Shown piece after piece: positions 26,706 to 44,361 of a DNA stretch of 57,627 bases (position 1 is the first letter of the stretch; the number at the start of each line of letters is the position of its first letter). Origin of the DNA: Armatimonadota bacterium (lineage in GTDB: Bacteria > Armatimonadota > DTGP01 > JAKQQT01). The notes under the pieces are model-generated. The model did no database searches. It saw only the letters and a program-made list of their open reading frames with translations, and was not told the DNA's origin. Location: the NCBI GenBank assembly GCA_036504095.1, contig DASXVS010000068.1, positions 1 through 57,627 on the forward strand, read 5' to 3'. Position numbers and translations under genes: made by a program.

Positions 26706-27734
26706 CTAAGCGTCCGTGCCCTGAATGTGGCACTGGCGGCAGAGGTTCTTCGCCTGAGTACCGTCGTCGCCTTCTTCAGTGACGACTCCCGTCCCCTTCA
26801 TGTAGATGAGGCCGAAAGCGTTCTGGTTGCCGTGGGATTTGTGGCAGGAGAAGCAGGACGGGGTGAAATCCGTCTGTCCCGCGTCCCAATTCCCCGTCGG
26901 ATTCATAACCTTGACTCTGTTGGTGTGGCCCGTGAACTGCGTGAGGCTTGAGAAGTAGGCCGCGCCCGGCGTTCCGATTTTGATGCCGGCCGTTGGGTGC
27001 CTGAACCAGTTCTTCGCGGTGCCTTCGTTCGCCGCGCCGTGGAAGACGGTGTGGCAGCCCTGGCACCATTCGCCGAAGGCTGATTTGGTGGTGTCCGGTT
27101 CGTTGAAGTCAACGTTGTTCACGGAGTAGTGGATACCGACCTGCCCAAGCGTGGCGTCGCGCTCGAAGATGGGCAGCGTGGTGTCATTGGTGCCGATGGC
27201 ATACGCCAGGGCAATGTCCGTCGGCGCCGTGCCAGGCTTACTCTGCAGGTTGCGGTACTGCTTGTTCGTGTATCCGGCGGGGTAGGTTGCGTGGCTCTGG
27301 CCGTGCTGGACGTGGCAATTGAGGCACTCCAGGCCAGTCGTGCCCGTGTTGAACGTTCCACCAGGGGCAACCACGTTCGGTACCCCCAGGGTATGGCCTT
27401 TCCAGTCCTCGTAGGGCGCCACGCCCGTTGTCAGGGCGCCGGCCTCGCGAACGTTGGTGCCGGTGTTCAAGCCGATCACGTCCGGGGCGAAGGTCTGACC
27501 ATCGTGGCACTGCAGGCACATCGTGTTTGCGTCGGCCTTCAGCAAGCCCACATACGGCCCACCGGTGAGAGGTGTAGTTGGTCCACCGGTGTAGGTGTGT
27601 GAGATGCTGTAGTGCATCGTGTGACAGTCAGAACAGATCAGTGATGAATCTGTATGGTAGTCTCCGGCCATCAATGTGCCGGCGCTGAGCGCCAGCACAA
27701 GTGCCGCGCCCAGGAGTTTCAGGTGTTTAGACAT
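26706..27734 (-). CDS. Periplasmic hexaheme c-type cytochrome
   Basis: 342 residues with signal peptide (LKLLGAALVLALSAGTLMA). Six CXXCH motifs: CSDCH, CLQCH, CLNCH, CQGCH, CFSCH and CRQCH, i.e. six covalent hemes. The start of the mature protein, GDYHTDSSLICSDCHTMH, matches that of the hexaheme at 36275-37297 (GEYHGPLQNTCSDCHTAH), so the two are paralogues of the doubled-CXXCH family. GGAGATG precedes the ATG. It is the last gene of the left arm and is separated by ~400 bases from the NHL gene upstream, so it may have its own promoter. Confidence 0.9.
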   Translation of the reverse strand: MSKHLKLLGAALVLALSAGTLMAGDYHTDSSLICSDCHTMHYSISHTYTGGPTTPLTGGPYVGLLKADANTMCLQCHDGQTFAPDVIGLNTGTNVREAGALTTGVAPYEDWKGHTLGVPNVVAPGGTFNTGTTGLECLNCHVQHGQSHATYPAGYTNKQYRNLQSKPGTAPTDIALAYAIGTNDTTLPIFERDATLGQVGIHYSVNNVDFNEPDTTKSAFGEWCQGCHTVFHGAANEGTAKNWFRHPTAGIKIGTPGAAYFSSLTQFTGHTNRVKVMNPTGNWDAGQTDFTPSCFSCHKSHGNQNAFGLIYMKGTGVVTEEGDDGTQAKNLCRQCHIQGTDA

Positions 27735-28132
27735 TAAGTGTCATCTCCATTTGTGTTGGAAAAAGAATCAACCGTTTTCACAGCCGGTAATAACCAGCGC
27801 CGTAACAGGTTTGGGGTACAACGAGTGCAACGCGCAGGTGTCTTTCCGCAGTGCTGTCAACGCGTTTGGCGGATCAGGCAGGGGCTTGTAGGCGTGCCCT
27901 CCGAGTCCACTACCAGGTTCTTTCGCCCCCCTTTCTAGTTCTTGATTGTTCGAGTAATCCCAGTTATCAACGTGAACACGGATTCGATATACGCGCCGGC
28001 TTGCGGGCTTACCCCGGTGGTACCCCGGCCCGGAAGACGGCCTCCGCGGTGTGGCTTCAGCGATCAGTGATCAAGTATGCATTTGGGTATGTCAGGTGCT
28101 CAGGCGACAGAGTAAACGCGGTGAACAGCACG
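27735..28132 (-). other. 398-base leader/intergenic region before the hexaheme gene
   Basis: No gene is supported here. On the minus strand a TTGATA and a TTGACA occur (near 27978 and 27858), neither with a convincing -10 at the right distance. A 26-base stretch with GTAG (27888) and CTAC (27913) at its ends, followed by CAG as in the element at 47892, may be a decayed repeat of the REP type. I looked for a c-di-GMP riboswitch, since these can precede cytochrome genes, and did not find the conserved core. Confidence 0.3.
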
Positions 28133-29206
28133 TTATTGGCTTGGTGGCGCGGCGCTTACCGGGGGCTCAATCTGAAACCCCTGCACCCGGGCGCCCGCGG
28201 ACTCCGCGACGTATATCTTTGCCCCCCCGTCACCCGTGATGGCGCTCGGGAATGACAGATCGCCCGCCCCCTGGCCCAGTCCGCCGATCGCCAGGGAGAG
28301 GAATTTGGGCGTGAGGGTCTGGCCCGATTTGGCGATTGTGAATACCGAGACCACGTGTCTCAACGTATCCACAACCCAGAGGCGGCCCGTCGAGTCTGTG
28401 ATCAGCCCCGCGGGCAGCGAGAAGTTCTGCGGGCCTGCATCATGCGTGCCGAAGGCCATGAGCTGCTTCCCGTCCGGCGCGTAGGCCCGGACGCAAACCC
28501 CCAACGCGTAAGAGGCGTACACGATGCCATCCTTGTCGGCCCATAAACCCGTGACGCCTTTGGATACGTCGGTCGCCGTTGCGTTGGCATCGGAGGTCGG
28601 CACGCCTTTGGAGTCCGGAATCCAGTCTGCTTTGGACTCGACGCCCATCGTGGTCTTCAATTTGAGGTCCGGGGTGAGCACCATGATTTCCTTGTCGCCG
28701 CCGGTCAGTCCCAAATACACGTTGCCGGCCGGATCAAGCGCCAGGCAGCGTGGTTGAATCTTCCCTTTCGGCTGGCCCAGCAACTCCGCCGGCCAGACCT
28801 TTCGGACGGAACGGCCCTGGAAATCGAGCACGTCCAGATAGGTGCACTGATTGTCGATGATCAGAATATCGCCGTTCTTCTGGACGACCACGCCCTTTGG
28901 CTCGCCGGGGTTGCGATTTCCCGTCACCGGATCGACGACGTAATGGGGGATCTTGATGATCGGCATGCCCTTTTTGTCGAGAATCACAATCTGGCCGTGG
29001 CCCGAATCCGCCACGTACAATTCGCTCCGCTTCGAGTCGTAAAACAGGCCGCTGGGCCTGGAAAACCGCTGCACGGACGAAAAGCCGTAGGAAGCGTAGA
29101 GATACCTCATCGGGATCTCGCCGTCCGCGAACGCGCGGCGGGAACCGGCGGCCATGGCCATCAGGGCGATCCCCACCGCCGCGACGATAGTTCGGTGTGT
29201 GCTCAT
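28133..29206 (-). CDS. Secreted NHL-repeat beta-propeller protein
   Basis: 357 residues with a signal peptide ending near residue 27 (AGSRRAFA). The mature protein is made of NHL-type blades: FSRPSGLFYDSKRSELYVAD, GEPKGVVVQKNGDILIIDN, QPRCLALDPAGNVYLG, FSLPAGLITDSTGRLWVVD and FPSAITGDGGAKIYVAE. NHL propellers bind proteins or ligands and are often found beside multiheme cytochromes. It starts three bases after the stop of the 16-heme gene, so it is translated from the same message. It is a paralogue of the NHL protein at 35218-36222. Confidence 0.85.
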   Translation of the reverse strand: MSTHRTIVAAVGIALMAMAAGSRRAFADGEIPMRYLYASYGFSSVQRFSRPSGLFYDSKRSELYVADSGHGQIVILDKKGMPIIKIPHYVVDPVTGNRNPGEPKGVVVQKNGDILIIDNQCTYLDVLDFQGRSVRKVWPAELLGQPKGKIQPRCLALDPAGNVYLGLTGGDKEIMVLTPDLKLKTTMGVESKADWIPDSKGVPTSDANATATDVSKGVTGLWADKDGIVYASYALGVCVRAYAPDGKQLMAFGTHDAGPQNFSLPAGLITDSTGRLWVVDTLRHVVSVFTIAKSGQTLTPKFLSLAIGGLGQGAGDLSFPSAITGDGGAKIYVAESAGARVQGFQIEPPVSAAPPSQ

Positions 29207-29209
29207 GGG

Positions 29210-30652
29210 TTAGCTCGCGACCCCCGTGTGGCAGAGGATACACAGGTCCCTGGATTTGTCGGCTATGGTCATGGCTTCAAACTTGGAGCCGTGAATATCG
29301 TGGCACGATGAGCAAGTCATCGGGTCGCCGTTTATCGGGTTGAGAACGATGGTACCGTCGGCCTTCTTGCCGATCGGGTGCGAGAACGAGTGCTTATGGC
29401 ACTTTCCGCACATGGATATCTCATCATCGACCAGCAGCTTCGGCTGCGGCGAACTGTGCGGCTTGTGGCACATCATGCAATCCAGATCGGTATCCAGCAC
29501 CTTGTGCCGATGCTCCGCTACCGTGTCTGTCTCGATCTTGCTATGACACGTGAAGCACGTGTACGCCGGACGAGCCTTCATCAGAGCCTTCTGGTTGGAC
29601 ACATGGGGGTCGTGACACGTCGTACAGAGCCCTTCCTTGGCCGGAACATGAGCGTGCTCACCGGCCGGAGTGATAACCGATGCGGGGTGGCAGGTCATGC
29701 AAAGCTCATTCGCGGGCTTGACGAGTCCGATTGGCTGTCCCGTTACGGGCTTGGTGTGGCAGATTTCGCACTTCCCCTGCTTGAAAGGCATGTGCGCTTT
29801 GGTCTTGACCAGGCTGGCCTTCTGGTTGTGCGAGTGCGGATCGTGGCACTGGGCGCATTTGGATTCGGCAATCGGATAGCCCTGATGAGCGGTGAGGATC
29901 GCCGGGGTCTTCGGATCGTGGCACTGGATGCATTTCTGCTGGACGTCCGGGATGACCATGTTGTGGTCCGGGGTTCCGTGCGGGTCGTGGCAGGTCAGGC
30001 ACTGCCCCTTGGCCACCGGCGAATGGGTATAGGCGGCGGTTTTGCCCGGTGAGCTTTCCAGGACCTTGGCGTGGCAGCCCAGACAAAGTTGCGGCGCCGG
30101 CTTGATCAGCTGCTTGTCATTCCCGTTCGGATGCCCGGTGTGACACGAGACGCACGCCAGGTTCTTTCTTCCGTGCTGGCTGCCGGCGAAATACCGGCCG
30201 GGGATATTCTGCCATTCCGCGGGAGCTTTCGACGCTTCGTTCTTGAAGTGGCACGTCCCGCAAACCGCGTTGGCGGCCTTGGGGTCATCCGCATTGATGA
30301 CGCGGAGTTTCCTGGTTCCGGGCGAAGCGACGTGAGCGCCGGCGGGACCGTGACACGCCTCACAGGCGTTCAATTCCGCCGGCAGGCCATCCTTCGTCAG
30401 AGACTTGCCGTGGGCGGATTTGGACCAGGCATCGACGGCGGCCGCATGGCAGTTCTTGCACGCCCCGCTGCCGACGTAAGCCGGCGCCGCGGGTGCGGGA
30501 GGCGTGGGGGGCTTGGCCACCGCCGGAGCGCCGGCGCCGCGGGGCGCCGCCTGAGCCCTGATAGGCGTCACGGACGCCAGGAATAGCCCAACGCCGAGAA
30601 TCGCACTTCGGACCGCCCGAGATGTCTTACCTGATGTCGTCATGATAATCAT
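29210..30652 (-). CDS. 16-heme c-type cytochrome
   Basis: 480 residues, secreted (signal block AILGVGLFLASVTPIRA), with an Ala/Pro-rich linker before the first heme. I count 16 CXXCH motifs: CKNCH, CEACH, CGTCH, CVSCH, CLGCH, CLTCH, CIQCH, CAQCH, CEICH, CMTCH, CTTCH, CFTCH, CMMCH, CGKCH, CSSCH and CILCH. That is one heme per ~28 residues of mature protein, with many CHDPH and free His-Xaa spacings as in nanowire-like doubled-CXXCH proteins. ATG at 30652 and ATG at 30643 are both possible starts. The leader carries Rex-box-like and other inverted repeats. Likely a periplasmic or surface electron wire. Confidence 0.9.
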   Translation of the reverse strand: MIIMTTSGKTSRAVRSAILGVGLFLASVTPIRAQAAPRGAGAPAVAKPPTPPAPAAPAYVGSGACKNCHAAAVDAWSKSAHGKSLTKDGLPAELNACEACHGPAGAHVASPGTRKLRVINADDPKAANAVCGTCHFKNEASKAPAEWQNIPGRYFAGSQHGRKNLACVSCHTGHPNGNDKQLIKPAPQLCLGCHAKVLESSPGKTAAYTHSPVAKGQCLTCHDPHGTPDHNMVIPDVQQKCIQCHDPKTPAILTAHQGYPIAESKCAQCHDPHSHNQKASLVKTKAHMPFKQGKCEICHTKPVTGQPIGLVKPANELCMTCHPASVITPAGEHAHVPAKEGLCTTCHDPHVSNQKALMKARPAYTCFTCHSKIETDTVAEHRHKVLDTDLDCMMCHKPHSSPQPKLLVDDEISMCGKCHKHSFSHPIGKKADGTIVLNPINGDPMTCSSCHDIHGSKFEAMTIADKSRDLCILCHTGVAS

Positions 30653-30924: not shown

Positions 30925-31335
30925 TTATTTCGGCGGGATCATATGGATATTCGTCTTCTGATGGCAGGCGGCGCAGGTGCTGCCTGACGGCACGCGCTGA
31001 ATCTTCGTTTTGTCACCCATATGGGCGGCGCCGGGGCCGTGGCAGCTTTCACACGTTGTGCCCTTCAGCAACGGAGTGGTCGCCTCGTCTATAAAACCGC
31101 CCTTGCCGTAACCGGTGGAATGGCACGGCAAGCACTCCGCGCTCTTCTCTTTTCCGACGTTGACCAGGAGGTCGAAGCTTTCCGCGTGGCGAGATTTAGC
31201 CCAGTCGTTGTAAATGTCGGGGTGGCACATTTTGCAGTTGTCTACGCCGGCGTACTTGCTGGTGCTCTGCGCGCCAATGACGACGCCATTCGCGGATACC
31301 AGAAATAGAACGAACCCACACAGCAGTTTCTTCAC
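30925..31335 (-). CDS. Tetraheme cytochrome c554-like protein
   Basis: 136 residues from the GTG at 31335 (AAAGGAACC upstream); this start gives a clean signal peptide (KKLLCGFVLFLVSANGVVIG). Four CXXCH motifs: CKMCH, CLPCH, CESCH and CAACH, with the c554-family spacing YNDWAKSRHAESF, then CHSTGYGKGGF and CESCHGPGAAHMGDK. The same domain forms the C-terminus of the fusion protein at 4420-5847. Small cytochromes of this type shuttle electrons in the periplasm. It lies between the 16-heme gene and the Rex-like gene on the same strand. Confidence 0.9.
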   Translation of the reverse strand: MKKLLCGFVLFLVSANGVVIGAQSTSKYAGVDNCKMCHPDIYNDWAKSRHAESFDLLVNVGKEKSAECLPCHSTGYGKGGFIDEATTPLLKGTTCESCHGPGAAHMGDKTKIQRVPSGSTCAACHQKTNIHMIPPK

Positions 31336-31503
31336 AAGCGGTTCCTTTCCCGGGCAGGAGAGAGTCTTTCCACACCTTGCGGGACAGCCGGTCCGCGAAG
31401 GCTCAAAACACCCGGCCACCTAACTCTTAATGGTCGGCCGGGCTGGCAATTCCGGTCGCTCGTTGAAATGGCGCATTCCGGCTCAAGATTGCGCATAAAC
31501 GGG

Positions 31504-32493
31504 TTATGAACTCTGCCGAAGTTCAACGTGTCTTCTCAAGTGATGCCTGCGGATAGGCGCAGAGACCACGGTGTCGTCACTTCTGACCTTCATAGCGAGC
31601 GCCATCATCTCGCCGATCATGTCAACCTGTCGCACATTCACGTGGGGTGGCGGCGTCAACGTCACCGAGGTGAGGTTCAAAATACCTTTCACGCCGGCCT
31701 CGATCAGAAAATCCGCGATGCCCCTGGCGTTTTCCGGAATCGCCAGCACAACTCCGTCGATGCTTCCTTCGCCTAACAGCGTCTTCAGATCACTTAACGG
31801 ACGAATATCCCAATCGCCGATCTTCTTTCCGATCCATTCAGGTCTGGGATCGAACGCTGCCACCACGCGGAAATTCAGATCCAGGGTGGAGTCGAACATC
31901 GCATACACATTGGTCAGCCATTCGGCCCCAATCCAAGCAACCAGACAGGTGTGCTGGTCAAAAAGTTTGTGAATTCTCTCCCGCAGAAACGCAACGTTGT
32001 AGCCGATCCCCGGCCTACCGGTTTCTCCGAAGCAGGAAAGGTCCTTCCGCACCATCGCGGCGCCAACTCCCACCTGATCCCCCAGTTCGCGCGAAGAGAT
32101 TATCTCTATCCCCTGGTCGGAGAATGAATCCAACGTCGCAGCATACCAGCGAAGGCGCATCAGTGTCTTGAGCGGAACGCTGGGACGATCGTGGCACGGT
32201 GTCCCCTTGTCTTCGAGATAGCGGGCGATCCGCCAGATCCAATGTGACTTATCTTCCGATCCACTGCGCAACGGGCATATGTTATGGAGATTCACCCGAA
32301 GAGAGCAAACGATGGTGGTACAGACGCTGCAATCCTGAATACCCCTGGCGCTCGCGCAGGCGTAGATCTGGCACGGGGTGCGACCCCACTGCTCCAAGTA
32401 AAGATTGCCCCGATCGCATCCCGGGCAAGTAGCCTGCCGGCGATACTTGCAGTTGCTGCAATCGAACAAGCCACATCGTGAACGCTCTTCCAA
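31504..32493 (-). CDS. Rex-like regulator with N-terminal cysteine-rich DUF3795-like domain
   Basis: 329 residues. Residues 1-75 hold 11 cysteines in a DUF3795-like order (CGLFDCSNC, CPGC, PCQIYACASARGIQDCSVC), suited to bind Fe-S or zinc. Residues ~105-170 are a Rex winged helix: IEIISSRELGDQVGV, then VRKDLSCFGETGRPGIGYNV (148-167). Residues ~180-310 follow the Rex Rossmann domain (VVAAFDPRPEWIGKKIGD), but the glycine loop GxGxxG is IGAEWLTN at 188-195, so NADH binding is doubtful. I start at the TTG at 32493 (GAGG eight bases upstream) because a TATAAT promoter lies just above it. The frame stays open to 32949 but there overlaps a divergent gene. Predicted redox-responsive repressor of the surrounding cytochrome genes. 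Confidence 0.75.
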   Translation of the reverse strand: MEERSRCGLFDCSNCKYRRQATCPGCDRGNLYLEQWGRTPCQIYACASARGIQDCSVCTTIVCSLRVNLHNICPLRSGSEDKSHWIWRIARYLEDKGTPCHDRPSVPLKTLMRLRWYAATLDSFSDQGIEIISSRELGDQVGVGAAMVRKDLSCFGETGRPGIGYNVAFLRERIHKLFDQHTCLVAWIGAEWLTNVYAMFDSTLDLNFRVVAAFDPRPEWIGKKIGDWDIRPLSDLKTLLGEGSIDGVVLAIPENARGIADFLIEAGVKGILNLTSVTLTPPPHVNVRQVDMIGEMMALAMKVRSDDTVVSAPIRRHHLRRHVELRQSS

Positions 32494-32553
32494 CGACAAA
32501 ACCTCGATGACCCGCCTGTACGAATAATTGAGCCCCGATTCACTGACGAAAAC

Positions 32554-35217: not shown

Positions 35218-36222
35218 ATGAGGCTGAATCCGGTTGGCTCCGGACTCCGTTTTCGGGGCGGTAGTGCCGTGAAGCTTCGGCTGGGCGCGTTCGCCCTGCT
35301 TTGCACCCTCAGCACCGTAAAGACGTTCGCCGCACCGTTTGATGCTGGAGCGCAACCGGATTTCCGCGAGTATTTCAGCATTACCGGTTACGGCGCCAAT
35401 ACGCGGTTCACCGAGCCATCGGCTCTGGCGCTGGACGAACGCAACCGCCTCATTTACATTGCCGACCAGAAGGCGGGCGTCGTGAGCGCCTTCAGCCTCC
35501 AGGGTGTTGCGAAGTTCCAGTATGGAGCGGCAAATGGGTTGAAGGCGCCCATCGGATTGGCGGTGGACCGCGCCGGCGATGTTTTCGTCTCGGAGAACGA
35601 CGGCGGCCCTATCAAGATCATCGATTCTAAGGGCGAGGTCAGCACCCTGGAATTGCCGGACGACAAGGGATATGGGAAAGACCCGCCGAAAACAGGACGG
35701 ATAGCGATAGACCGCGATGACAACCTTTGCGTGGTTGACCGCGCAAATTGCCAGGTGTTTGTGTTCGACAAAGATCGAAAGTTCAAGCTGAAATTCGGTG
35801 GAGTGGGGGACAAGCGCGGGCAATTCAAGCTGATCCAGGATGTCGCCTTTGACAAACAGGGCAGGATTTACGTTACGGATGCCGTTGGAACGGCCGTTCA
35901 GGTATTCGATCGAAATGGCGCCTATATCTACGGCTTCGGCGCTCACGGCGAGGCGGACGATGCCGTTTCCTTCCCGGCGGGCGTATTCGTGGACCGGCAT
36001 GACCAGGTGTGGGTTGTGGATAAGCCGCGGCATAGCCTGAAGGTGTTCAACCGGTCGGGCTTGTTTCTGAGATCGTTTGGCGCCTATGGCCAGGGCGAAG
36101 GCAGTTTGTTTTACCCCGTCGCCGCGGCGCAAGACGCATTGGGGCGAGTGTACGTGCTGGAGTTTGGGGCGCGAAGGCTTCAGGTCTTCACCCTCAACCG
36201 GCCCTTTGAACCGTTTAGTTAG
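35218..36222 (+). CDS. Secreted NHL-repeat beta-propeller protein
   Basis: 334 residues from ATG at 35218 (GGAG four bases upstream). A GTG at 35269 would place the signal peptide (KLRLGAFALLCTLSTVKTFA) at the very start and is a fair alternative. Six NHL-type blades follow: FTEPSALALDERNRLIYIAD, APIGLAVDRAGDVFVSE, GRIAIDRDDNLCVVDR, IQDVAFDKQGRIYVTD, FPAGVFVDRHDQVWVVD and YPVAAAQDALGRVYVLE. Paralogue of the NHL protein in the left arm; again it sits beside a hexaheme cytochrome. The role is probably structural or binding, outside the cytoplasm. Confidence 0.85.
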   Translation: MRLNPVGSGLRFRGGSAVKLRLGAFALLCTLSTVKTFAAPFDAGAQPDFREYFSITGYGANTRFTEPSALALDERNRLIYIADQKAGVVSAFSLQGVAKFQYGAANGLKAPIGLAVDRAGDVFVSENDGGPIKIIDSKGEVSTLELPDDKGYGKDPPKTGRIAIDRDDNLCVVDRANCQVFVFDKDRKFKLKFGGVGDKRGQFKLIQDVAFDKQGRIYVTDAVGTAVQVFDRNGAYIYGFGAHGEADDAVSFPAGVFVDRHDQVWVVDKPRHSLKVFNRSGLFLRSFGAYGQGEGSLFYPVAAAQDALGRVYVLEFGARRLQVFTLNRPFEPFS

Positions 36223-36274
36223 CTCATCCGGGTGTCACCGGGTGTCGTCATCGAATCTAAGCAGGATCAATATC

Positions 36275-37297
36275 GTGTTGCGACGGAATAACAGCCTCTC
36301 CCTGATCACGTTGGCGGTACTGGCAGCTTGCCTGCTGGCCACGGGCGCCGTCCGGGCTGGCGAGTATCACGGGCCGCTGCAGAATACGTGTTCCGACTGC
36401 CACACCGCCCATGCCAGCGTGCGCGGGCAAACGTGGACGCCCACACCGCATCTTCTCAAGAACTCCAATGGAGAGGTTTCGCTCTGCATGAGCTGCCACG
36501 ACGGAACCGACCCGCAGGCTCCCGATATTGTGGCTTCCGGCACCGCGAGCAACCCTACGGACACGGTGACCACGTTGTACACCAGCAAATTTGGGTCAAG
36601 CGCGGGGTTCTTCCAGAGCGACTACCTTACGGCCAGTTCCCCGTACGGTCACGACCTGGCGCCGGCGTTTTCGGTCAGCGCTCCGTTGTCCTCCGGCTAC
36701 ACGAAAAGCGGCGGGCTCACCTGTGCGGATTGTCACGACGTGCACGGAAACGACAATTACAGGAACCTGCTGCCCGACCCGAATCCCGCGCATCCGGGGT
36801 CATACAGCATCGTCATCGGCACGCAAGTGAAAGAGACGACGCCTGTAAACGCGCAAAACCCGAACCCCGCGGTGGCGTATGATACGGCGAACGTTTCGCT
36901 CTACGTGAACAACAACATCAATGCGTGGTGCACTGATTGTCACGACCTGCTTGCGGCCAACAGCGCCGGCAGCGCGCCCGCGCATTTCCGGGGCCATCCG
37001 ACCGACGTTCAGATCGGGGGCATCGGCAAGCATACGGACTCCGCCAACTGGATTTCACCCGGCAGCGGGCCGAACACGGGCTTCGGAAGCGATGTGAATG
37101 ACTCCATTCCCGGCATCCCGCGAGTACGGTACGGATCTCCCACAGGCAGCAACACCATCGCCGGTAGCACCGACACCGTCTCGTGCCTGAGCTGTCACAA
37201 GGCCCACGGCAGCAAGTACAAACAAGCCACGGTCTGGCCGCTTCAGCAGGCCGGAGCCGACATGATTTCAGGATGCCAGCAGTGCCATTTCAAATAG
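36275..37297 (+). CDS. Hexaheme c-type cytochrome
   Basis: 340 residues. I take the GTG at 36275 (AGGA eight bases upstream), since it puts the signal peptide (LITLAVLAACLLATGAVRA) at the N-terminus; the open frame before it belongs to no domain. Six CXXCH motifs: CSDCH, CMSCH, CADCH, CTDCH, CLSCH and CQQCH. It shares layout and N-terminal pattern with the hexaheme at 26706-27734. It starts 52 bases after the NHL gene and ends two bases before the decaheme gene. Confidence 0.9.
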   Translation: MLRRNNSLSLITLAVLAACLLATGAVRAGEYHGPLQNTCSDCHTAHASVRGQTWTPTPHLLKNSNGEVSLCMSCHDGTDPQAPDIVASGTASNPTDTVTTLYTSKFGSSAGFFQSDYLTASSPYGHDLAPAFSVSAPLSSGYTKSGGLTCADCHDVHGNDNYRNLLPDPNPAHPGSYSIVIGTQVKETTPVNAQNPNPAVAYDTANVSLYVNNNINAWCTDCHDLLAANSAGSAPAHFRGHPTDVQIGGIGKHTDSANWISPGSGPNTGFGSDVNDSIPGIPRVRYGSPTGSNTIAGSTDTVSCLSCHKAHGSKYKQATVWPLQQAGADMISGCQQCHFK

Positions 37298-37299
37298 GT

Positions 37300-38826
37300 A
37301 TGTCGAAAACCGCGACGAAATGGGCCCGGCTTGCCGGACGCGCCTGCCTGCTGCTGGCGGCGATCGCGCTGCCGGTCAGTTTGTTTGCAGACGGCGGATT
37401 CTACACCCAGACCAAGCACGGCAGCCCCACGCTCGGCGTTCAGAGAGATCTGGCGCAGCCACAGGGAGACTGCACGCAGTGCCACACGAGCCATGGGACG
37501 AACCCGCAGGATTTCGGGCTGTGGGTGGCGAATGACGACAATCTGTGCTTCACCTGCCATGCCACCGAGGCGGGAACCTATTCGGGGCAGACGGCATACT
37601 CGCAAAGCGGCCACTCCGTTTCAACGGTCACCTTCAATCAGCGCCCGGTCGGCCTGTGCGTGCAGTGCCACAACCCTCACGGGGCCGGCGACTCTCGCGG
37701 AATGTTCCCCAAATTGACCGCTCAACTGGAAGAGAAGAATTGCTACACGTGCCATGGATCGAGCCTGCGGCCGCAAGGAGCGCAGGACATCGAAACACCC
37801 TCCCGGCAGAGGTATGGCCACGCGGTGGCGAATTTCGAGCGCCTGCACAACGATGCCGCCGAGTTCGGCTCTATCGGCGGCCGGCCCAATCAGTTTCTCA
37901 GCGGAGCATCGCGTCACGTTGAATGTGCGGACTGTCACAACACGCATACCGGGAAGACCGCGCCCCGTTTGGCCCGCAGTTCCAACATCGGGGAATTGAT
38001 GCTGGGCACCTGGGGAGTGCGGCCGGTCTTTTCCGGAACCGCATGGATTGCGCCGTCGAGTTACGTCACGGAGAGGTTCCAGAGCACATCCACCGAACTT
38101 GAGTCCTACCTCTGCTTCAAATGCCATTCCGATTACGCGTGGGGCAACCAGGCGCCGTATACCGCGGATGGAATGCTCGAATCAAACAACGCGCTCGAGT
38201 TCAATCCAAACAACCCAGCGTACCACAATGTCACCGGCCAGCCGGAACTGAGTGTTCCGTCGGAGGACTTCGTTTTCGGCACCGCGAGCCCGCCTGCCTA
38301 TATCAACCAGTGGGGCCCCAACTCGGCCATGGCTTGCAGCGACTGCCACGCGGGCGATCCCAGTACCGGGGACGTTCAGGGTTCGCACGGATCGATGTTC
38401 AGCTTCCTGCTGAAGAAGCGCTTCAAGGCGCAGGCAGGGGCTATTGACAACACGGGCGCCACCGGCACGCAGTCGGACGCCTGTTTTGATTGCCACGATT
38501 GGAACACGTACGGACAGGGCGGCACAGGAACGGCAACGAATTTCCGCAAGGATACCGGCAATCTGCACAGCCTGGCGGGCCACGCCCAGGCGGGGTGTTT
38601 CCAGTGCCATTCCGCGGTCCCGCACGGATTCAAGCGCAAGCATATGATCGTCTACGTGACCGACGGGGCTCCCTATTACCAGTCAGATCCGATTAACTAC
38701 ACCCTTCAGAAGGGCGGCATCCAGGCGTACTCTCACCAGGATGGCGGCGCATACACAGTCAACAGCTGCAAGGCGGGCTGCCATGACGCCCACCAGACGG
38801 CAACGCCGGTAAACCCGTTACCCTGA
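37300..38826 (+). CDS. Decaheme c-type cytochrome (nine CXXCH, one CX3CH)
   Basis: 508 residues with signal peptide (RACLLLAAIALPVSLFA). Nine CXXCH sites: CTQCH, CFTCH, CVQCH, CYTCH, CADCH, CFKCH, CSDCH, CFDCH and CFQCH. A tenth site near the C-terminus is CKAGCH (codons at 38767-38784), a CX3CH variant. The ATG at 37300 stands two bases after the hexaheme stop; the frame is open further back only as a shadow. The beta-barrel gene follows 17 bases later, the order expected for the cytochrome that sits in an outer-membrane conduit. Exact position in the complex is inference. Confidence 0.9.
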   Translation: MSKTATKWARLAGRACLLLAAIALPVSLFADGGFYTQTKHGSPTLGVQRDLAQPQGDCTQCHTSHGTNPQDFGLWVANDDNLCFTCHATEAGTYSGQTAYSQSGHSVSTVTFNQRPVGLCVQCHNPHGAGDSRGMFPKLTAQLEEKNCYTCHGSSLRPQGAQDIETPSRQRYGHAVANFERLHNDAAEFGSIGGRPNQFLSGASRHVECADCHNTHTGKTAPRLARSSNIGELMLGTWGVRPVFSGTAWIAPSSYVTERFQSTSTELESYLCFKCHSDYAWGNQAPYTADGMLESNNALEFNPNNPAYHNVTGQPELSVPSEDFVFGTASPPAYINQWGPNSAMACSDCHAGDPSTGDVQGSHGSMFSFLLKKRFKAQAGAIDNTGATGTQSDACFDCHDWNTYGQGGTGTATNFRKDTGNLHSLAGHAQAGCFQCHSAVPHGFKRKHMIVYVTDGAPYYQSDPINYTLQKGGIQAYSHQDGGAYTVNSCKAGCHDAHQTATPVNPLP

Positions 38827-38843
38827 CGCGGAAATCAACGATT

Positions 38844-40541
38844 TTGAGCGATCGCGAAATCATAACGCCCGGACGGGCCCTGCTCTTACTCCTGACACTG
38901 GCTATCGCCGCACAGGCGGAACCCGTTCGTGCGGGCGTTCTGGATTTCCAGGCGCAGACGGAGTACGATTTCGCGCAGGTAAAGAGGAAAGGAACGTCGG
39001 CTACAGGGATCGGCCATTTTTCGACGGACTATACCCTGACACTGCGAAGGCCGTTTCTGCCCGCTTCATCCCTTATGAGCGACCTGACGTTCAAAGGCAT
39101 TGACAGCAGCGACAGCAATTTCCGCCAGAACTCCAGGGGCTGGACGCTGAACCTGTACAGCACCGACCCGAAGTACATGCTGAGCAGTCGGATTGACCAC
39201 AACTCATACACCACGTCCTCGGGTTTATCCACGAAATCGACCGGCTATACAACGAACTACCATGCGGATCTCTTATTGAGGCAGCCTGCTTATCCGGCCG
39301 TAAGCCTGCAATTTCAACGCCAGACATCGGGGACGAATTACGGCGGAGCATCGGGCAACTACACAACCAGCACGTGGCTGATGAGCAGTTACTATGACAT
39401 GGCGCCGTTGCGCTTCACCGTCGACCGCTCCCGGCAGAGGTTTGATTACTCCGGGGCAAACAGTATCCAAATGGGCAGCCAGTCGTCCGCGATAACGCTC
39501 AACCGTTCTCTGATGACCGGCCTCACTGTGTACGGCGAACTGAGCCATACGGCGACAGATGTCAAGTATTCCGCATCCTCCTCATCGACCGATACCAACC
39601 GGAGGGTGCTGCGGCTAACCGTGACGCCGCTGCGATCCCTTGTCGCGGATATTTCGCTGGAATCACAGGCGGATCGTCAGAAGGTGGGGCTGGTATCGGG
39701 AACGAACGACAATGCTCTGGTATCCTGGAGCGTACGGTCGGAAATCCTGCCCGGTCTGTCCCTGGATGCCAGTGATGACCGTCAGACGCAGTCGGGCAGG
39801 GCGTATTTCGGCTACCCCAGCAGTGTTTCCAGGAATCGGAGTGTCGCGCTCACCGCACGATTCAGTGACGCGGCTCTGTTCAGCGTATCAAACACACGCT
39901 CCGATTTCGATGTATCCACCACGATCTACCATGCGACTCAGGAGTCGCTGCAATCAACGCTGCAGGCGAGCCTTTCTCCGACCACCGATTTGAATCTGAA
40001 TTACGGGAGGAGCAAGTCCTCGGCCGGGGGCGGCGACCTGTTCGACAGCTCCGTCGAGGGGCTCCTGATCAGGGACAGGACTTCGAGGTTACTCTCGGTG
40101 GGCGCTTCGTTCCGGCGCAACAGGCTCCGCTCCGAGGTGTCCGGGGGAGAGCCGCTTCTCCAATACGGCGACACGGCGGATGTGGACGTCTCGTGGCAGC
40201 CTCGATACGACGTTGGCCTCGACCTGCGAATGAGCCACCAGAACAACACGGGAAGCGGGGCGTACAAATCGTTTGCGCCCTCCGGCAATCTGAGGTGGCA
40301 GATCACATCCGCCACGAATTTCACGGCGAACTATTCGCTGCAAAGGTACCGGCCGTTCGACCCCACGAACGTGGGGCTCCTGGGCCAGGATACGAGAGGG
40401 CTTTCCATGCGCCTGACCCACAGGATTGCGAGGGGCGCCACCCTGGATATTGCCTACGATTTCCAGGCCAGCAATATCACGGACATCGAGTGGCATAGGC
40501 AGCTCAGGATGGGTTTCGTACTCAGTCCGTCTTCATACTGA
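38844..40541 (+). CDS. Outer-membrane beta-barrel protein, candidate conduit porin
   Basis: 565 residues from a TTG start; signal peptide LLLLLTLAIAAQAEPVRA. The rest is a long run of amphipathic strands with Tyr/Trp/Phe girdles and short Ser/Asn/Asp turns, for example YTLTLRRPFLPASSLMSDLT and FTANYSLQRYRPFDPTNVG, ending LRMGFVLSPSSY. Length and strand pattern suggest a barrel of more than 20 strands. I see no match to a named porin family such as MtrB. Its place between two multiheme cytochromes and the System II genes argues for the sheath of a porin-cytochrome complex, like Ombs in Geobacter, by analogy and not by homology. Confidence 0.7.
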   Translation: MSDREIITPGRALLLLLTLAIAAQAEPVRAGVLDFQAQTEYDFAQVKRKGTSATGIGHFSTDYTLTLRRPFLPASSLMSDLTFKGIDSSDSNFRQNSRGWTLNLYSTDPKYMLSSRIDHNSYTTSSGLSTKSTGYTTNYHADLLLRQPAYPAVSLQFQRQTSGTNYGGASGNYTTSTWLMSSYYDMAPLRFTVDRSRQRFDYSGANSIQMGSQSSAITLNRSLMTGLTVYGELSHTATDVKYSASSSSTDTNRRVLRLTVTPLRSLVADISLESQADRQKVGLVSGTNDNALVSWSVRSEILPGLSLDASDDRQTQSGRAYFGYPSSVSRNRSVALTARFSDAALFSVSNTRSDFDVSTTIYHATQESLQSTLQASLSPTTDLNLNYGRSKSSAGGGDLFDSSVEGLLIRDRTSRLLSVGASFRRNRLRSEVSGGEPLLQYGDTADVDVSWQPRYDVGLDLRMSHQNNTGSGAYKSFAPSGNLRWQITSATNFTANYSLQRYRPFDPTNVGLLGQDTRGLSMRLTHRIARGATLDIAYDFQASNITDIEWHRQLRMGFVLSPSSY

Positions 40542-40543
40542 GT

Positions 40544-40561
40544 TTGTGCGTTCACGCACAA
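40544..40561. promoter_or_regulatory. Rex-box-like palindrome upstream of the lipoprotein-resB-ccsA group
   Basis: TTGTG-CGTTCACG-CACAA fits the outer Rex consensus exactly; with flanks it is TTTGTGCG-TTCA-CGCACAAA, an eight-base perfect stem. It begins three bases after the barrel stop, so it could instead be part of a transcript end, but no T run follows. A TTGACA (40578-40583) lies 17 bases downstream, with only a poor -10. Confidence 0.5.
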
Positions 40562-40740
40562 ACCCTAACAGGGATTGTTGACATACATCGCCCAAATGAA
40601 GGACAAATCAAAACGGGGCCGAATGTAAGCGTTCGGAAAACAGTTCGATAAGCGACGCGGCGTTCGTGAGGGGAGACTTCATGGCGCCGGCCCGGGTTGG
40701 TTCGATTGTCCGCAACAGGGCACTTCGAGAGTGGAATCAC

Positions 40741-41910
40741 ATGAAAATCAAAACTCCAGTCGGAATGATGCTTGCCGCATTAATCGTGACGATGCCCATC
40801 GTTTCAGGGTGCAATGATGGAGGACCGTCCACCAAGTTGTTTGTGAAGGCCCGGAATGGAAAGCGCCTCCGAGTGGCCGTCCTGCCGTTTGACAACGTCA
40901 GCAGGGATCAGGACGCGGGCCGAACCGTCACCAACACCATCGTCACCTACCTGCTGTCCACCGGCGACTACGACGTAGTGGAACCGGGCGTGGTCAGTTC
41001 GGCGATGAGCTCCGAAGGGATCCGCCTCGTCGACGGCATAACCTTGGAGTCGTGCCAGAAACTCCAGCCCAAACTCAACGCGGACGCGTTCATCATGGGG
41101 ATGGTCGAAGAGTATGGGGAGGTCCGGATCGGGGCCGACTCGTACCCATCCGTCTCGTTCAGCGCCCGGCTCATTGACCCGCGAAACGCCGACATCCTGT
41201 GGGCGGGAACGATCAGCAAGACGGGAGCCGATAACGTCAAGGTGTTCGACATCGGCCGCGTCTCGTCGATCGGAAAGCTCTCCAAGCGGGCAGTGGCGGC
41301 GTTTTCAGCCTCCCTGGCGAAGTCCAGAGCGGCTATTACGGCGGCGATGTCTTCGCCTCCCGTTGATGTGACACCGCCGACCGTCGCACCGACCCCGCCG
41401 GTGACAACGCCGGTTCCGGAGCCGGTTGCGCCGCCGGTTGTTGAGCCGACTCCCACCCCCACGCCGACGCCCACCCCGACGCCTACACCGGACGTGACGC
41501 CGCCGTCAAACGCGAAATATCGTGACGAGTCCGCAGCCTACAGCGAAAAAGCGCTTACGGCATTGCTGAAGGACATTGGCACGGCGAAACTCGGCAAAGT
41601 GAACTATTCGAAGCATTTCCACGGGACGATCGAAACGAAGTACGTCGTCGGGGACCGCGGGCAATCCGTGGATGTGAAGCTTGTTGACTACTTGAAAGTC
41701 GCGACCGCGGAGAAATTCGTCCAGGGATACAATCCGGGCGCGCAACAGACTACGTTTGAGACTCTGCCGGCGTTTACCGGCGAATCCGGTTTCGGCTACG
41801 TTCATCTGGACGTGGCGGTTGGCCGCTTCGGCATCTACCTCCGTGGCCCGAAAGACAGGAAGGCGGACGTGGACGCTGTCGGCAAGGGGATTATCGCACT
41901 GCTAAAATAG
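40741..41910 (+). CDS. CsgG-like lipoprotein with Thr-Pro repeat linker
   Basis: 389 residues from ATG at 40741; lipobox VSGC ends the signal. Residues ~30-200 resemble the CsgG/GNA1162-type domain (LRVAVLPFDNVSRDQDAGRT, YDVVEPGVVSSAMSSEGI, ADAFIMGMVEEYGEVRIG, SARLIDPRNADILWAGTIS). A Pro-rich linker with six or more Thr-Pro repeats leads to a C-terminal ~120-residue domain (YSEKALTALLKDIGTAKLGK). CsgG-type lipoproteins form or support outer-membrane secretion pores. In this operon it may help export or anchor a cytochrome; that is inference. Its start follows a Rex-box-like site. Confidence 0.7.
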   Translation: MKIKTPVGMMLAALIVTMPIVSGCNDGGPSTKLFVKARNGKRLRVAVLPFDNVSRDQDAGRTVTNTIVTYLLSTGDYDVVEPGVVSSAMSSEGIRLVDGITLESCQKLQPKLNADAFIMGMVEEYGEVRIGADSYPSVSFSARLIDPRNADILWAGTISKTGADNVKVFDIGRVSSIGKLSKRAVAAFSASLAKSRAAITAAMSSPPVDVTPPTVAPTPPVTTPVPEPVAPPVVEPTPTPTPTPTPTPTPDVTPPSNAKYRDESAAYSEKALTALLKDIGTAKLGKVNYSKHFHGTIETKYVVGDRGQSVDVKLVDYLKVATAEKFVQGYNPGAQQTTFETLPAFTGESGFGYVHLDVAVGRFGIYLRGPKDRKADVDAVGKGIIALLK

Positions 41911-41944: not shown

Positions 41945-43363
41945 GTGATCAACGGAAACTACCAGGAAGATCCGCATCAGGCAGGGGCAGGGGCAGCGCA
42001 GCCGGTCGAAGAGAAAGAGATCGGCGCCCTGGAGGCATTGTGGGCGTTTTTCAGCTCGATGAAGACGGCCATCGTGCTTCTCCTACTTCTGGCTGCGACC
42101 TCGATCGCGGGCACGATCATCGAGGACAGAACAGGGAAAACCATCTATGGCAGCACCGGGTTTTCCATGCTGGTCCTGCTTATCGGCATCAACCTGGCCG
42201 TGTGCAGCATCAACCGGTTCGGGCTTGTCTGGCGGACCGGGTTCAGGCCGAGTGCGGCCGCATCGCCGGCGTTGGTTTCGATGATGTCAAGGTCGCAGAA
42301 GGTGACCTGCGCCGGCGCTGTAGATTCCGTTGCGGACAAGGTGATCCGTTCGCTTCGATCGATGCATTACCGTGTCGATACCGAGGCCTCCGACGGCGCC
42401 GTTTCAATCTATGCCGACAAGGGGCGCGCCAGCGTGTGGGGCCCGCACGTCACTCATCTGAGCCTGCTCATCATCTTCATCGGAGCGATTTTCGGAAACT
42501 ACTTCGGAAAAGAAGGATTCACGAACATCGTTGAAGGCCAGCGCGCCGCCGGGTACTACCCGAGGGACATGAAGAGCAAAGTGAAGACTCCGATGGGCTT
42601 CGAGGTAGGCCTGAACAGTTTCACAATCACTTACGACAAGAACCACAGCCCGGTTGGATACAAGAGCGACCTTCAGGTCTACGACGGCGGCAAGGCGACG
42701 ACCCGAAGAACCATCGACGTGAATCACCCGCTCACGTACAACGGTCTCTCGTTTTACCAGTCGGACTACGGACTGGTTGGGCTTGTGATGAAGGTGACCG
42801 CGCCGGATGGCCAGGTGCAGGAGATCGGGTACGACATCAGCACCGATGACACCAACCAGGGCAGGAAATACAGCGTGGCCGGCCAGCCGTTCAAGCAGTT
42901 TCCGCTGGCAGGGAAGAACCTTACCCTGTTCGTGCACAACCTTGTCCCGGACTACGTAGAAGGGATGGAAGGCGGCCGAAGCACGCTGCCATTGAACCCC
43001 GCGGTCAACGTGATGATCAACGACCGGTTTCCGCAGTATAAGGGGATGGATGCGTGGGGAAAGCTGGGCTGGTTGACGGTGTCGAAGTCGGCTGAGTACA
43101 AGGGCTATACAGTGACGCTGGACCGAGTGGTCAAATACACCGGCTTGCAGGTTTCCAGCAATCCCGCCCTGCCGGTGGTCTATCTCGGCTTCGTGCTTGC
43201 CGTGCTTGGCGTGCTGCTGTGCTTTTACGTGACGCATAAGTCCATCAGGGTAAGCATCACGGGGTCCGGCGAGGCAGTGAACGTGGTTGTTGGCGGAACG
43301 TCGAAACCCGATCCGGCGGTGATGGACAAGGACCTGAAACGCCTGTCTGACTCGCTGGCATGA
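41945..43363 (+). CDS. resB: Cytochrome c biogenesis protein ResB (CcsB)
   Basis: 472 residues from a GTG start with GAGG upstream. ResB is one half of the System II cytochrome c synthase that attaches heme to CXXCH outside the membrane. Features: ALWAFFSSMKTAIVLLLLLA (first helix), TSIAGTIIEDRTGKTIYG, HVTHLSLLIIFIGAIFGNYF, a large periplasmic part with INHPLTYNGLSFYQ-like block (here DVNHPLTYNGLSFYQSDYG), and a last helix PVVYLGFVLAVLGVLLCFY. Normal length. It is followed by ccsA, the usual partner. Confidence 0.9.
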   Translation: MINGNYQEDPHQAGAGAAQPVEEKEIGALEALWAFFSSMKTAIVLLLLLAATSIAGTIIEDRTGKTIYGSTGFSMLVLLIGINLAVCSINRFGLVWRTGFRPSAAASPALVSMMSRSQKVTCAGAVDSVADKVIRSLRSMHYRVDTEASDGAVSIYADKGRASVWGPHVTHLSLLIIFIGAIFGNYFGKEGFTNIVEGQRAAGYYPRDMKSKVKTPMGFEVGLNSFTITYDKNHSPVGYKSDLQVYDGGKATTRRTIDVNHPLTYNGLSFYQSDYGLVGLVMKVTAPDGQVQEIGYDISTDDTNQGRKYSVAGQPFKQFPLAGKNLTLFVHNLVPDYVEGMEGGRSTLPLNPAVNVMINDRFPQYKGMDAWGKLGWLTVSKSAEYKGYTVTLDRVVKYTGLQVSSNPALPVVYLGFVLAVLGVLLCFYVTHKSIRVSITGSGEAVNVVVGGTSKPDPAVMDKDLKRLSDSLA

Positions 43364-43488: not shown

Positions 43489-44361
43489 ATGACAGAACAA
43501 CTGGGGCTGAGACTGTTTGAGACGGCATTCTGGATCTACCTAGCGGCGGCGGCGATATATATCGCCGGCATGTTCAAGAACCAGACGAATCTGGCGAAAC
43601 TGGGCCGGGGCTTTTTTCTGGCCGCGCTGCTTGTGCACACGGGTTCGCTCGTGGTCATCACCATCGCCATCGGCAGGCCGCCATTCCTGAACCTGTATGA
43701 GTACATGCTTTCGTTCACCTGGGCGGCGGCGGCGGTGTATGCGGCGATGGAAGCCCTCACCAAAAGCACGTCGTTCGGGGCGTTCTGTGTGCCTCTGATC
43801 GCGGCCTTCGCCCTTTTCACCCAGCTCTTGGGCAAAGAGATACACCAGGGGATCGACGAGAGCATCATGCCGGCCCTCCACAGCGCGTGGCGCGTCCCTC
43901 ACGTGGGGAGCGCGATCCTTGCGTACGGGGCGTTCCTGATAGCGTTCGTGCTGGCCATCATGTACCTGGTTCGAACCCAGATCGACCGAAACGCCGCTGC
44001 GCCGGGGGGGAAGCCCGCGCAGAAATCCTTCTGGGATGCCAGACTGCCGTCGGCCGCAGTGCTTGATCAGACGATCTACCGCACCATCGCTTTCGGATTC
44101 CTCATGCAGACCCTCCTGGTGATCATCGGCGCCGTGTGGGCCCAGGTGGCCTGGGGCAGATTCTGGGGCTGGGATCCGAAGGAAACGTGGTCGTTCATCA
44201 CATGGCTGATTTACGCCACATACCTTCACACGCGGACCGCCATGGGGTGGCGCGGCCAGAGGTCGGCGTGGTTGGCGATCATCGGGTTCGCCGCGACGGC
44301 GTTTACGCTGATCGGTGTGAGTTTCCTGCTTGGCGGGCTGCACAGCTACGCCGGGAAATAG
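43489..44361 (+). CDS. ccsA: Cytochrome c biogenesis protein CcsA (ResC)
   Basis: 290 residues with about eight membrane segments. The heme-handling tryptophan-rich motif WGRFWGWDPKETWSFITWL is diagnostic of the CcmC/CcmF/CcsA family; flanking histidines for heme transfer are visible (SAWRVPHVGSAILAY, THLHTR-like YLHTRTAMGW). With ResB it forms the System II synthase. GGAGG lies ten bases before the ATG. A 125-base gap after resB leaves room for its own promoter. Likely last gene of the right arm; a hairpin follows. Confidence 0.9.
   Translation: MTEQLGLRLFETAFWIYLAAAAIYIAGMFKNQTNLAKLGRGFFLAALLVHTGSLVVITIAIGRPPFLNLYEYMLSFTWAAAAVYAAMEALTKSTSFGAFCVPLIAAFALFTQLLGKEIHQGIDESIMPALHSAWRVPHVGSAILAYGAFLIAFVLAIMYLVRTQIDRNAAAPGGKPAQKSFWDARLPSAAVLDQTIYRTIAFGFLMQTLLVIIGAVWAQVAWGRFWGWDPKETWSFITWLIYATYLHTRTAMGWRGQRSAWLAIIGFAATAFTLIGVSFLLGGLHSYAGK

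Follow-up and report, generated by a model that had tools for sequence, protein, structure and literature searches.

A Rex-type regulator with a cysteine-rich DUF3795 domain and an altered NAD(H) site, encoded beside multiheme cytochrome genes in Armatimonadota

Rex senses NADH/NAD+ through a GxGxxG loop, while RirA, a member of the Rrf2 family, is an Fe-S winged-helix regulator. Within Rex, the residues termed Ala' and Tyr' contact the oxidised nicotinamide, with the Tyr belonging to the switch (PMC6125430), and in S. agalactiae Rex the recognition-helix residue Arg50 reads the operator (PMC8376106). Hydrogenase maturation is a known target of canonical Rex (PMC6391272). The third point of comparison, the domain DUF3795 (PF12675), is mentioned, incidentally, in just one paper of the literature searched, and the resources searched yielded neither a solved structure of a DUF3795 relative nor a known DUF3795 cofactor.

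The window analysed here, a stretch of 57,627 nucleotides from an Armatimonadota genome (4.68 Mb, 98.6% complete), encodes a protein that combines features of Rex and DUF3795. It shares with canonical Rex (T. aquaticus, T. maritima, S. agalactiae, B. subtilis) the winged helix with its recognition Arg and wing, the Rossmann domain, the C-terminal helix and an association with Rex-operator (ROP)-like palindromes; unlike canonical Rex, it carries an N-terminal DUF3795 domain, has lost the GxGxxG loop and residues of the nicotinamide switch, and occurs in a multiheme cytochrome context. With stand-alone DUF3795 it shares ten Cys in the same order, CGx(2-3)CxxC..CxGC..C..C..CxxC..C, at near-identical spacing, but it opens with C-x4-C-x2-C rather than C-x3-C-x2-C, has an eleventh Cys (C73), lacks the FPC motif and is attached to Rex. 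RirA belongs to an unrelated family, and the two proteins differ in Cys domain and Rossmann core; by analogy, they would work alike if the Cys domain of the fusion carries an Fe-S cluster next to the winged helix.

Domain architecture and family of the fusion

The original prediction, that a DUF3795-like Cys domain precedes a Rex winged helix and a Rex-like Rossmann domain, is borne out by Pfam, by NCBIfam and by a separate scan of residues 1-92. Across the whole protein, Pfam reports Put_DNA-bind_N (E 4e-15), CoA_binding (E 1.5e-6) and DUF3795 (E 1.1e-3), the last scoring 19.9 bits, which is below its gathering cut-off of 22.6; residues 1-92 alone score 24.9 bits (E 2.8e-5), which is above it. 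NCBIfam classes the fusion as Rex (NF003995, 159.6 bits against a cut-off of 126), and its strong PDB sequence matches are solved Rex proteins only. The winged helix, in which residues 148-167 read VRKDLSCFGETGRPGIGYNV, keeps the columns of the Rex motif RKDLSxFGxxGxxGxGY. An alternative TTG lies at 32499. The C-terminal tail RRHHLRRHVELRQSS (window 31504-31570) is basic and His-rich, and is not conserved across the fusion family.

Modelled with AlphaFold2, residues 107-300 come out Rex-like, and the top 39 Foldseek matches are all Rex, with the Rex-type Rossmann domain and C-terminal helix in place. Confidence in the Cys domain is low to moderate (pLDDT about 40-75 alone, about 50-88 in the full model). 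Since it is poorly predicted in both models, metal geometry cannot be claimed; the domain modelled alone, with a pLDDT of 57, was not taken into the fold search.

Table 1. Features of the window
Feature	Position	Strand	Details
6-heme cytochrome	26706..27734	-	
NHL beta-propeller protein	28133..29206	-	
16-heme cytochrome	29210..30652	-	Paired_CXXCH, NrfB/MtrC-like matches
Candidate operator CTGTGCG-CACG-CGCACAA	30687..30704		34 bp upstream of 16-heme cytochrome gene; p = 0.002
4-heme cytochrome (Cytochrome_C554)	30925..31419	-	Next gene downstream of regulator
DUF3795-Rex fusion gene, 329 aa	31504..32493	-	TTG start at 32493, stop at 31504
Rex-type Rossmann domain, residues 183-301	31591..31947	-	Foldseek; PDB sequence matches
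Degenerate dinucleotide loop W187-I-G-A-E-W-L-T-N195, replacing GxGNLG	31909..31935	-	Column comparison
Rex winged-helix DNA-binding domain, residues 107-165	31999..32175	-	PF06971, E 4e-15; Arg149/Lys150 retained
Cys-rich DUF3795 domain, residues 7-73	32275..32475	-	PF12675 in 16/16 homologues; hhalign 94.8%
Weak Rex-operator-like half site TTGTGAAATAGGGTATAA	32555..32572	-	61 bp upstream of fusion gene; p = 0.06
6-heme cytochrome	36230..37297	+	
9-heme cytochrome	37243..38826	+	
565-aa secreted protein, predicted outer-membrane barrel	38844..40541	+	No Pfam match
Candidate operator TTGTGCG-TTCA-CGCACAA	40544..40561		Before lipoprotein-ResB-CcsA, just after barrel gene; p = 0.001
GNA1162-like lipoprotein	40666..41910	+	
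ResB, cytochrome c biogenesis system II	41945..43363	+	
CcsA-type cytochrome c assembly protein	43489..44361	+	

The source genome holds a second copy of the fusion (contig C26, 57% identity) and no further Rex. A profile search of 291 Armatimonadota genomes gave matches in 153, mostly ordinary Rex, and 16 full-length fusions in 14 of the genomes; searching 397 relatives with a profile built from just the Cys domain recovered those 16 fusions and no other protein. All 16 Cys domains individually match DUF3795, and hhalign aligns them to the stand-alone DUF3795 proteins of the phylum with 94.8% probability and ten Cys in register. The 11 Cys of the window protein stand at residues 7, 12, 15, 23, 26, 41, 46, 55, 58, 63 and 73 (C-x4-C-x2-C-x7-C-x2-C-x14-C-x4-C-x8-C-x2-C-x4-C-x9-C); across the family, eight are invariant in 16/16 and three more are present in 15/16. 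All domains of the fusion are under purifying selection. For the Cys domain, four pairs give dN/dS of 0.13-0.45; for the Rossmann domain, three pairs give 0.24-0.36 (saturated for the window protein and its paralogue), and thus neither of these two domains is decaying. The N-terminal part had been expected to lie inside the translated region, and its conservation in 16 proteins, each matching DUF3795, together with the selection acting on it, rules out an untranslated artefact.

In a maximum-likelihood tree, a branch with 100/99 support sets the 16 fusions, along with the Cys-less relatives L066 and L067 (together the clade of 18 to which we refer below), apart from all canonical and reference Rex. 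The fusion is an old lineage within Armatimonadota, and the simplest reading of the tree would be one old fusion event followed by two later losses of the Cys domain. One of the Cys-less proteins (L066:1297-1953), which has a W-I-G loop, adjoins Fer4 and CCG-domain (heterodisulfide-reductase-like) genes.

No fusion was found in a protein search of genome contigs outside Armatimonadota, nor in the plasmids searched. A scan for the Cys pattern, narrow enough that variant members would be missed, returned Armatimonadota/Hebobacteria records only, plus one titled 'Bacillota bacterium CSMAG_728' (L012 / L059); the fusion in that record groups with those of Hebobacteria, so the phylum in its title is probably wrong. 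The architecture had been thought undescribed, and we found no paper on it in the literature searched, which left most subscription journals out of reach; with 16 fusions in the phylum, it is nonetheless not unique to the source genome.

The NAD(H) site and the DNA-binding surface

We compared the clade of 18 with 20 canonical Armatimonadota Rex and the Rex of T. maritima, S. agalactiae and B. subtilis. The loop motif GxGN[L/I]G is present in 20/20 of the canonical proteins and in 0/18 of the fused clade. Replaced in the clade are the second and third Gly, Asn92, Ala96 and Tyr100 (T. maritima numbers) and F176-A177 of the NFAP motif; G91, N92, G94, A96 and Y100 are kept in the 20 canonical Rex. 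A Trp187 that is new to the clade is invariant in it. At the column of T. aquaticus Y98 the window protein has F200, and Tyr, found in 19/20 canonical Rex, is not listed for the clade. At the column of T. aquaticus D188 the window protein has D291, and Asp occurs in 12/18 of the clade and in just 11/20 canonical proteins. On the DNA-binding side, Arg50 (GBS numbering) is kept in 18/18 clade members and the next residue, Lys/Arg51, in 16/18; most of the wing motif is retained as well. Thus the NAD(H) site has been selectively lost while the DNA-binding residues have been retained. Loss of the NADH loop, as first noticed in the window, proves to be broader than a loop change, the site being degraded at many positions and throughout the family; decay of the loop as a private mutation is thereby ruled out.

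Cytochrome genes and candidate operators

The fusion gene heads a minus-strand run of 4-heme and 16-heme cytochromes and an NHL propeller, with a 6-heme cytochrome further on (Table 1). The 565-aa secreted protein encoded on the plus strand is, judged from its sequence, likely to be an outer-membrane barrel. The island appears partly mirrored around the regulator (window 26706-29206 versus 35218-37297), with paralogues on opposite strands: the NHL proteins are 25% identical (E 8e-24) and the 6-heme cytochromes 29% (E 7e-20).

The proposed multiheme setting holds in the window and extends to other family members. Counting as a cytochrome neighbour any ORF with at least three haem motifs within about 8 kb, 5/16 fusions have one, whereas the density at which Paired_CXXCH clusters occur in their genomes would predict about 0.16 (P about 3e-7, approximate since some of the loci are related); 11/16 have none. 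Canonical Rex, taken as a control, has such neighbours in 1/20 cases, a difference from the fusions of only p = 0.049, several contigs being truncated. The paralogue of the window fusion sits near 8-heme and 6-heme genes, and the neighbourhood of locus L054 contains a decaheme gene together with one for a large barrel-like protein. At L064 and L065 the fusion, HemA, an 11-CXXCH protein, ResB and CcsA follow one another in the same order on one strand; homologues of the cytochrome, ResB and CcsA parts are found in the window, and homologues of the cytochrome and barrel parts at L054. Each of the 11-motif proteins (L064:11167-14265, L065:8323-11328) is one polypeptide chain of about 1000 aa that matches the MtrB/PioB barrel weakly, and may represent a fused MtrA-MtrB conduit.

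Other settings also occur. The L052 fusion follows HydG/HydF/HydE-like genes, and the L056 fusion precedes hemB. In the Hebobacteria group no fusion has a cytochrome neighbour, and several lie beside a response-regulator gene. In genome G228 the fusion adjoins HydEFG-like genes, and a canonical Rex with an intact GAGNLG loop has a 10-heme ORF 2.3 kb away (L068:2844-6990).

Two candidate operators lie in the island (Table 1). With one mismatch or fewer, TTGTGCGN4CGCACAA has three sites in the 4.68-Mb genome, two of them in the island; the associated P of 5e-4 for two of three sites falling in the window is optimistic, because the motif was chosen after both window sites had been seen. The site at 40544 has no T-run behind it and is not called as a terminator; its position immediately after a stop codon makes a role as an RNA hairpin conceivable. 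Autoregulation of the fusion gene through the candidate half site in front of it is possible. Palindromes resembling the Rex operator occur in the own promoters of the L054, L056, L064, L065 and L067 genes (p 0.005-0.02 each), with a combined P of 2e-4 over 18 genes. A search for upstream motifs found no good operator before several of the island genes or before the neighbours of the paralogue.

What the fusion may sense

Loss of the NADH-binding residues, gain of the Cys domain and the cytochrome neighbours together suggest that the signal probably differs from that of ordinary Rex, and the original proposal, in which sensing no longer depends on NADH but on a metal, Fe-S or thiol centre in the N-terminal domain, is plausible. 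We lean, on balance, towards a Rex derivative blind to NADH whose control of multiheme cytochrome genes runs through a metal (probably Fe-S) or thiol switch in the Cys domain. Such a protein would be a DNA-binding regulator, probably dimeric and no longer responsive to NADH/NAD+, in which the Rossmann domain is retained as the dimer core but has a rebuilt NAD(H) pocket. In the DUF3795 domain, Cys residues would ligate a metal centre (Fe-S being the likeliest, with Zn or a reactive set of thiols as the alternatives), and the state of that centre would alter the binding of the two winged helices to Rex-operator-like palindromes. Control of the surrounding island of multiheme cytochrome and cytochrome c assembly genes could then take either sign, repression or activation.

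It is also conceivable, though in our view unlikely, that the remodelled Rossmann pocket still senses a dinucleotide or other nucleotide, the Cys domain being a structural Zn site or a second input. Several positions are kept, namely the first loop Gly, the Leu, F214-D215 behind strand 2 and the LN that precedes the NFAP position; the domain is under purifying selection, and the invariant Trp187 suggests re-use of the pocket. Yet the other two loop Gly are gone in 18/18 or nearly so, as are Asn, Ala, Tyr and Phe-Ala, and these losses include the Ala' and Tyr' nicotinamide contacts (PMC6125430). We give rather little weight to a purely structural metal site, or protein-interaction module, in a regulator that takes its signal from a two-component partner. 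Such partners are to hand in some genomes, where fusions come immediately after a histidine kinase / response regulator pair (f35) or, in several Hebobacteria (f22), adjoin a receiver-domain gene, but there is none in the window or at L051, L052, L054 or L056, and eight Cys are invariant in 16/16 proteins across very different contexts. Sensing of haem through the Cys-Pro motif C73-P74 appears very improbable: although the neighbours include cytochromes, hemA (L064, L065) and hemB (L056), the motif is absent at L056 and L063-L065, among them the very fusions that lie beside hemA and hemB.

Returning to the NADH-blind, Cys-domain switch, a more specific version of it can be put forward tentatively, and we rate it as less likely than not: that this is an ancient Armatimonadota lineage of Rex in which NADH sensing was swapped for an Fe-S switch borne by DUF3795, and which became a redox regulator dedicated to conduits for extracellular electron transfer and to the supply of haem and cytochrome c for them. 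Automatic annotation of these proteins as Rex predicts an NADH response that they probably lack. If the swap did take place, it would provide a first function for DUF3795, and the family would be the first functional test bed for that domain. It would also be an example of a widespread redox repressor rewired to a new sensor domain, and would offer a handle on the control of multiheme cytochrome conduits in an almost uncultured phylum.
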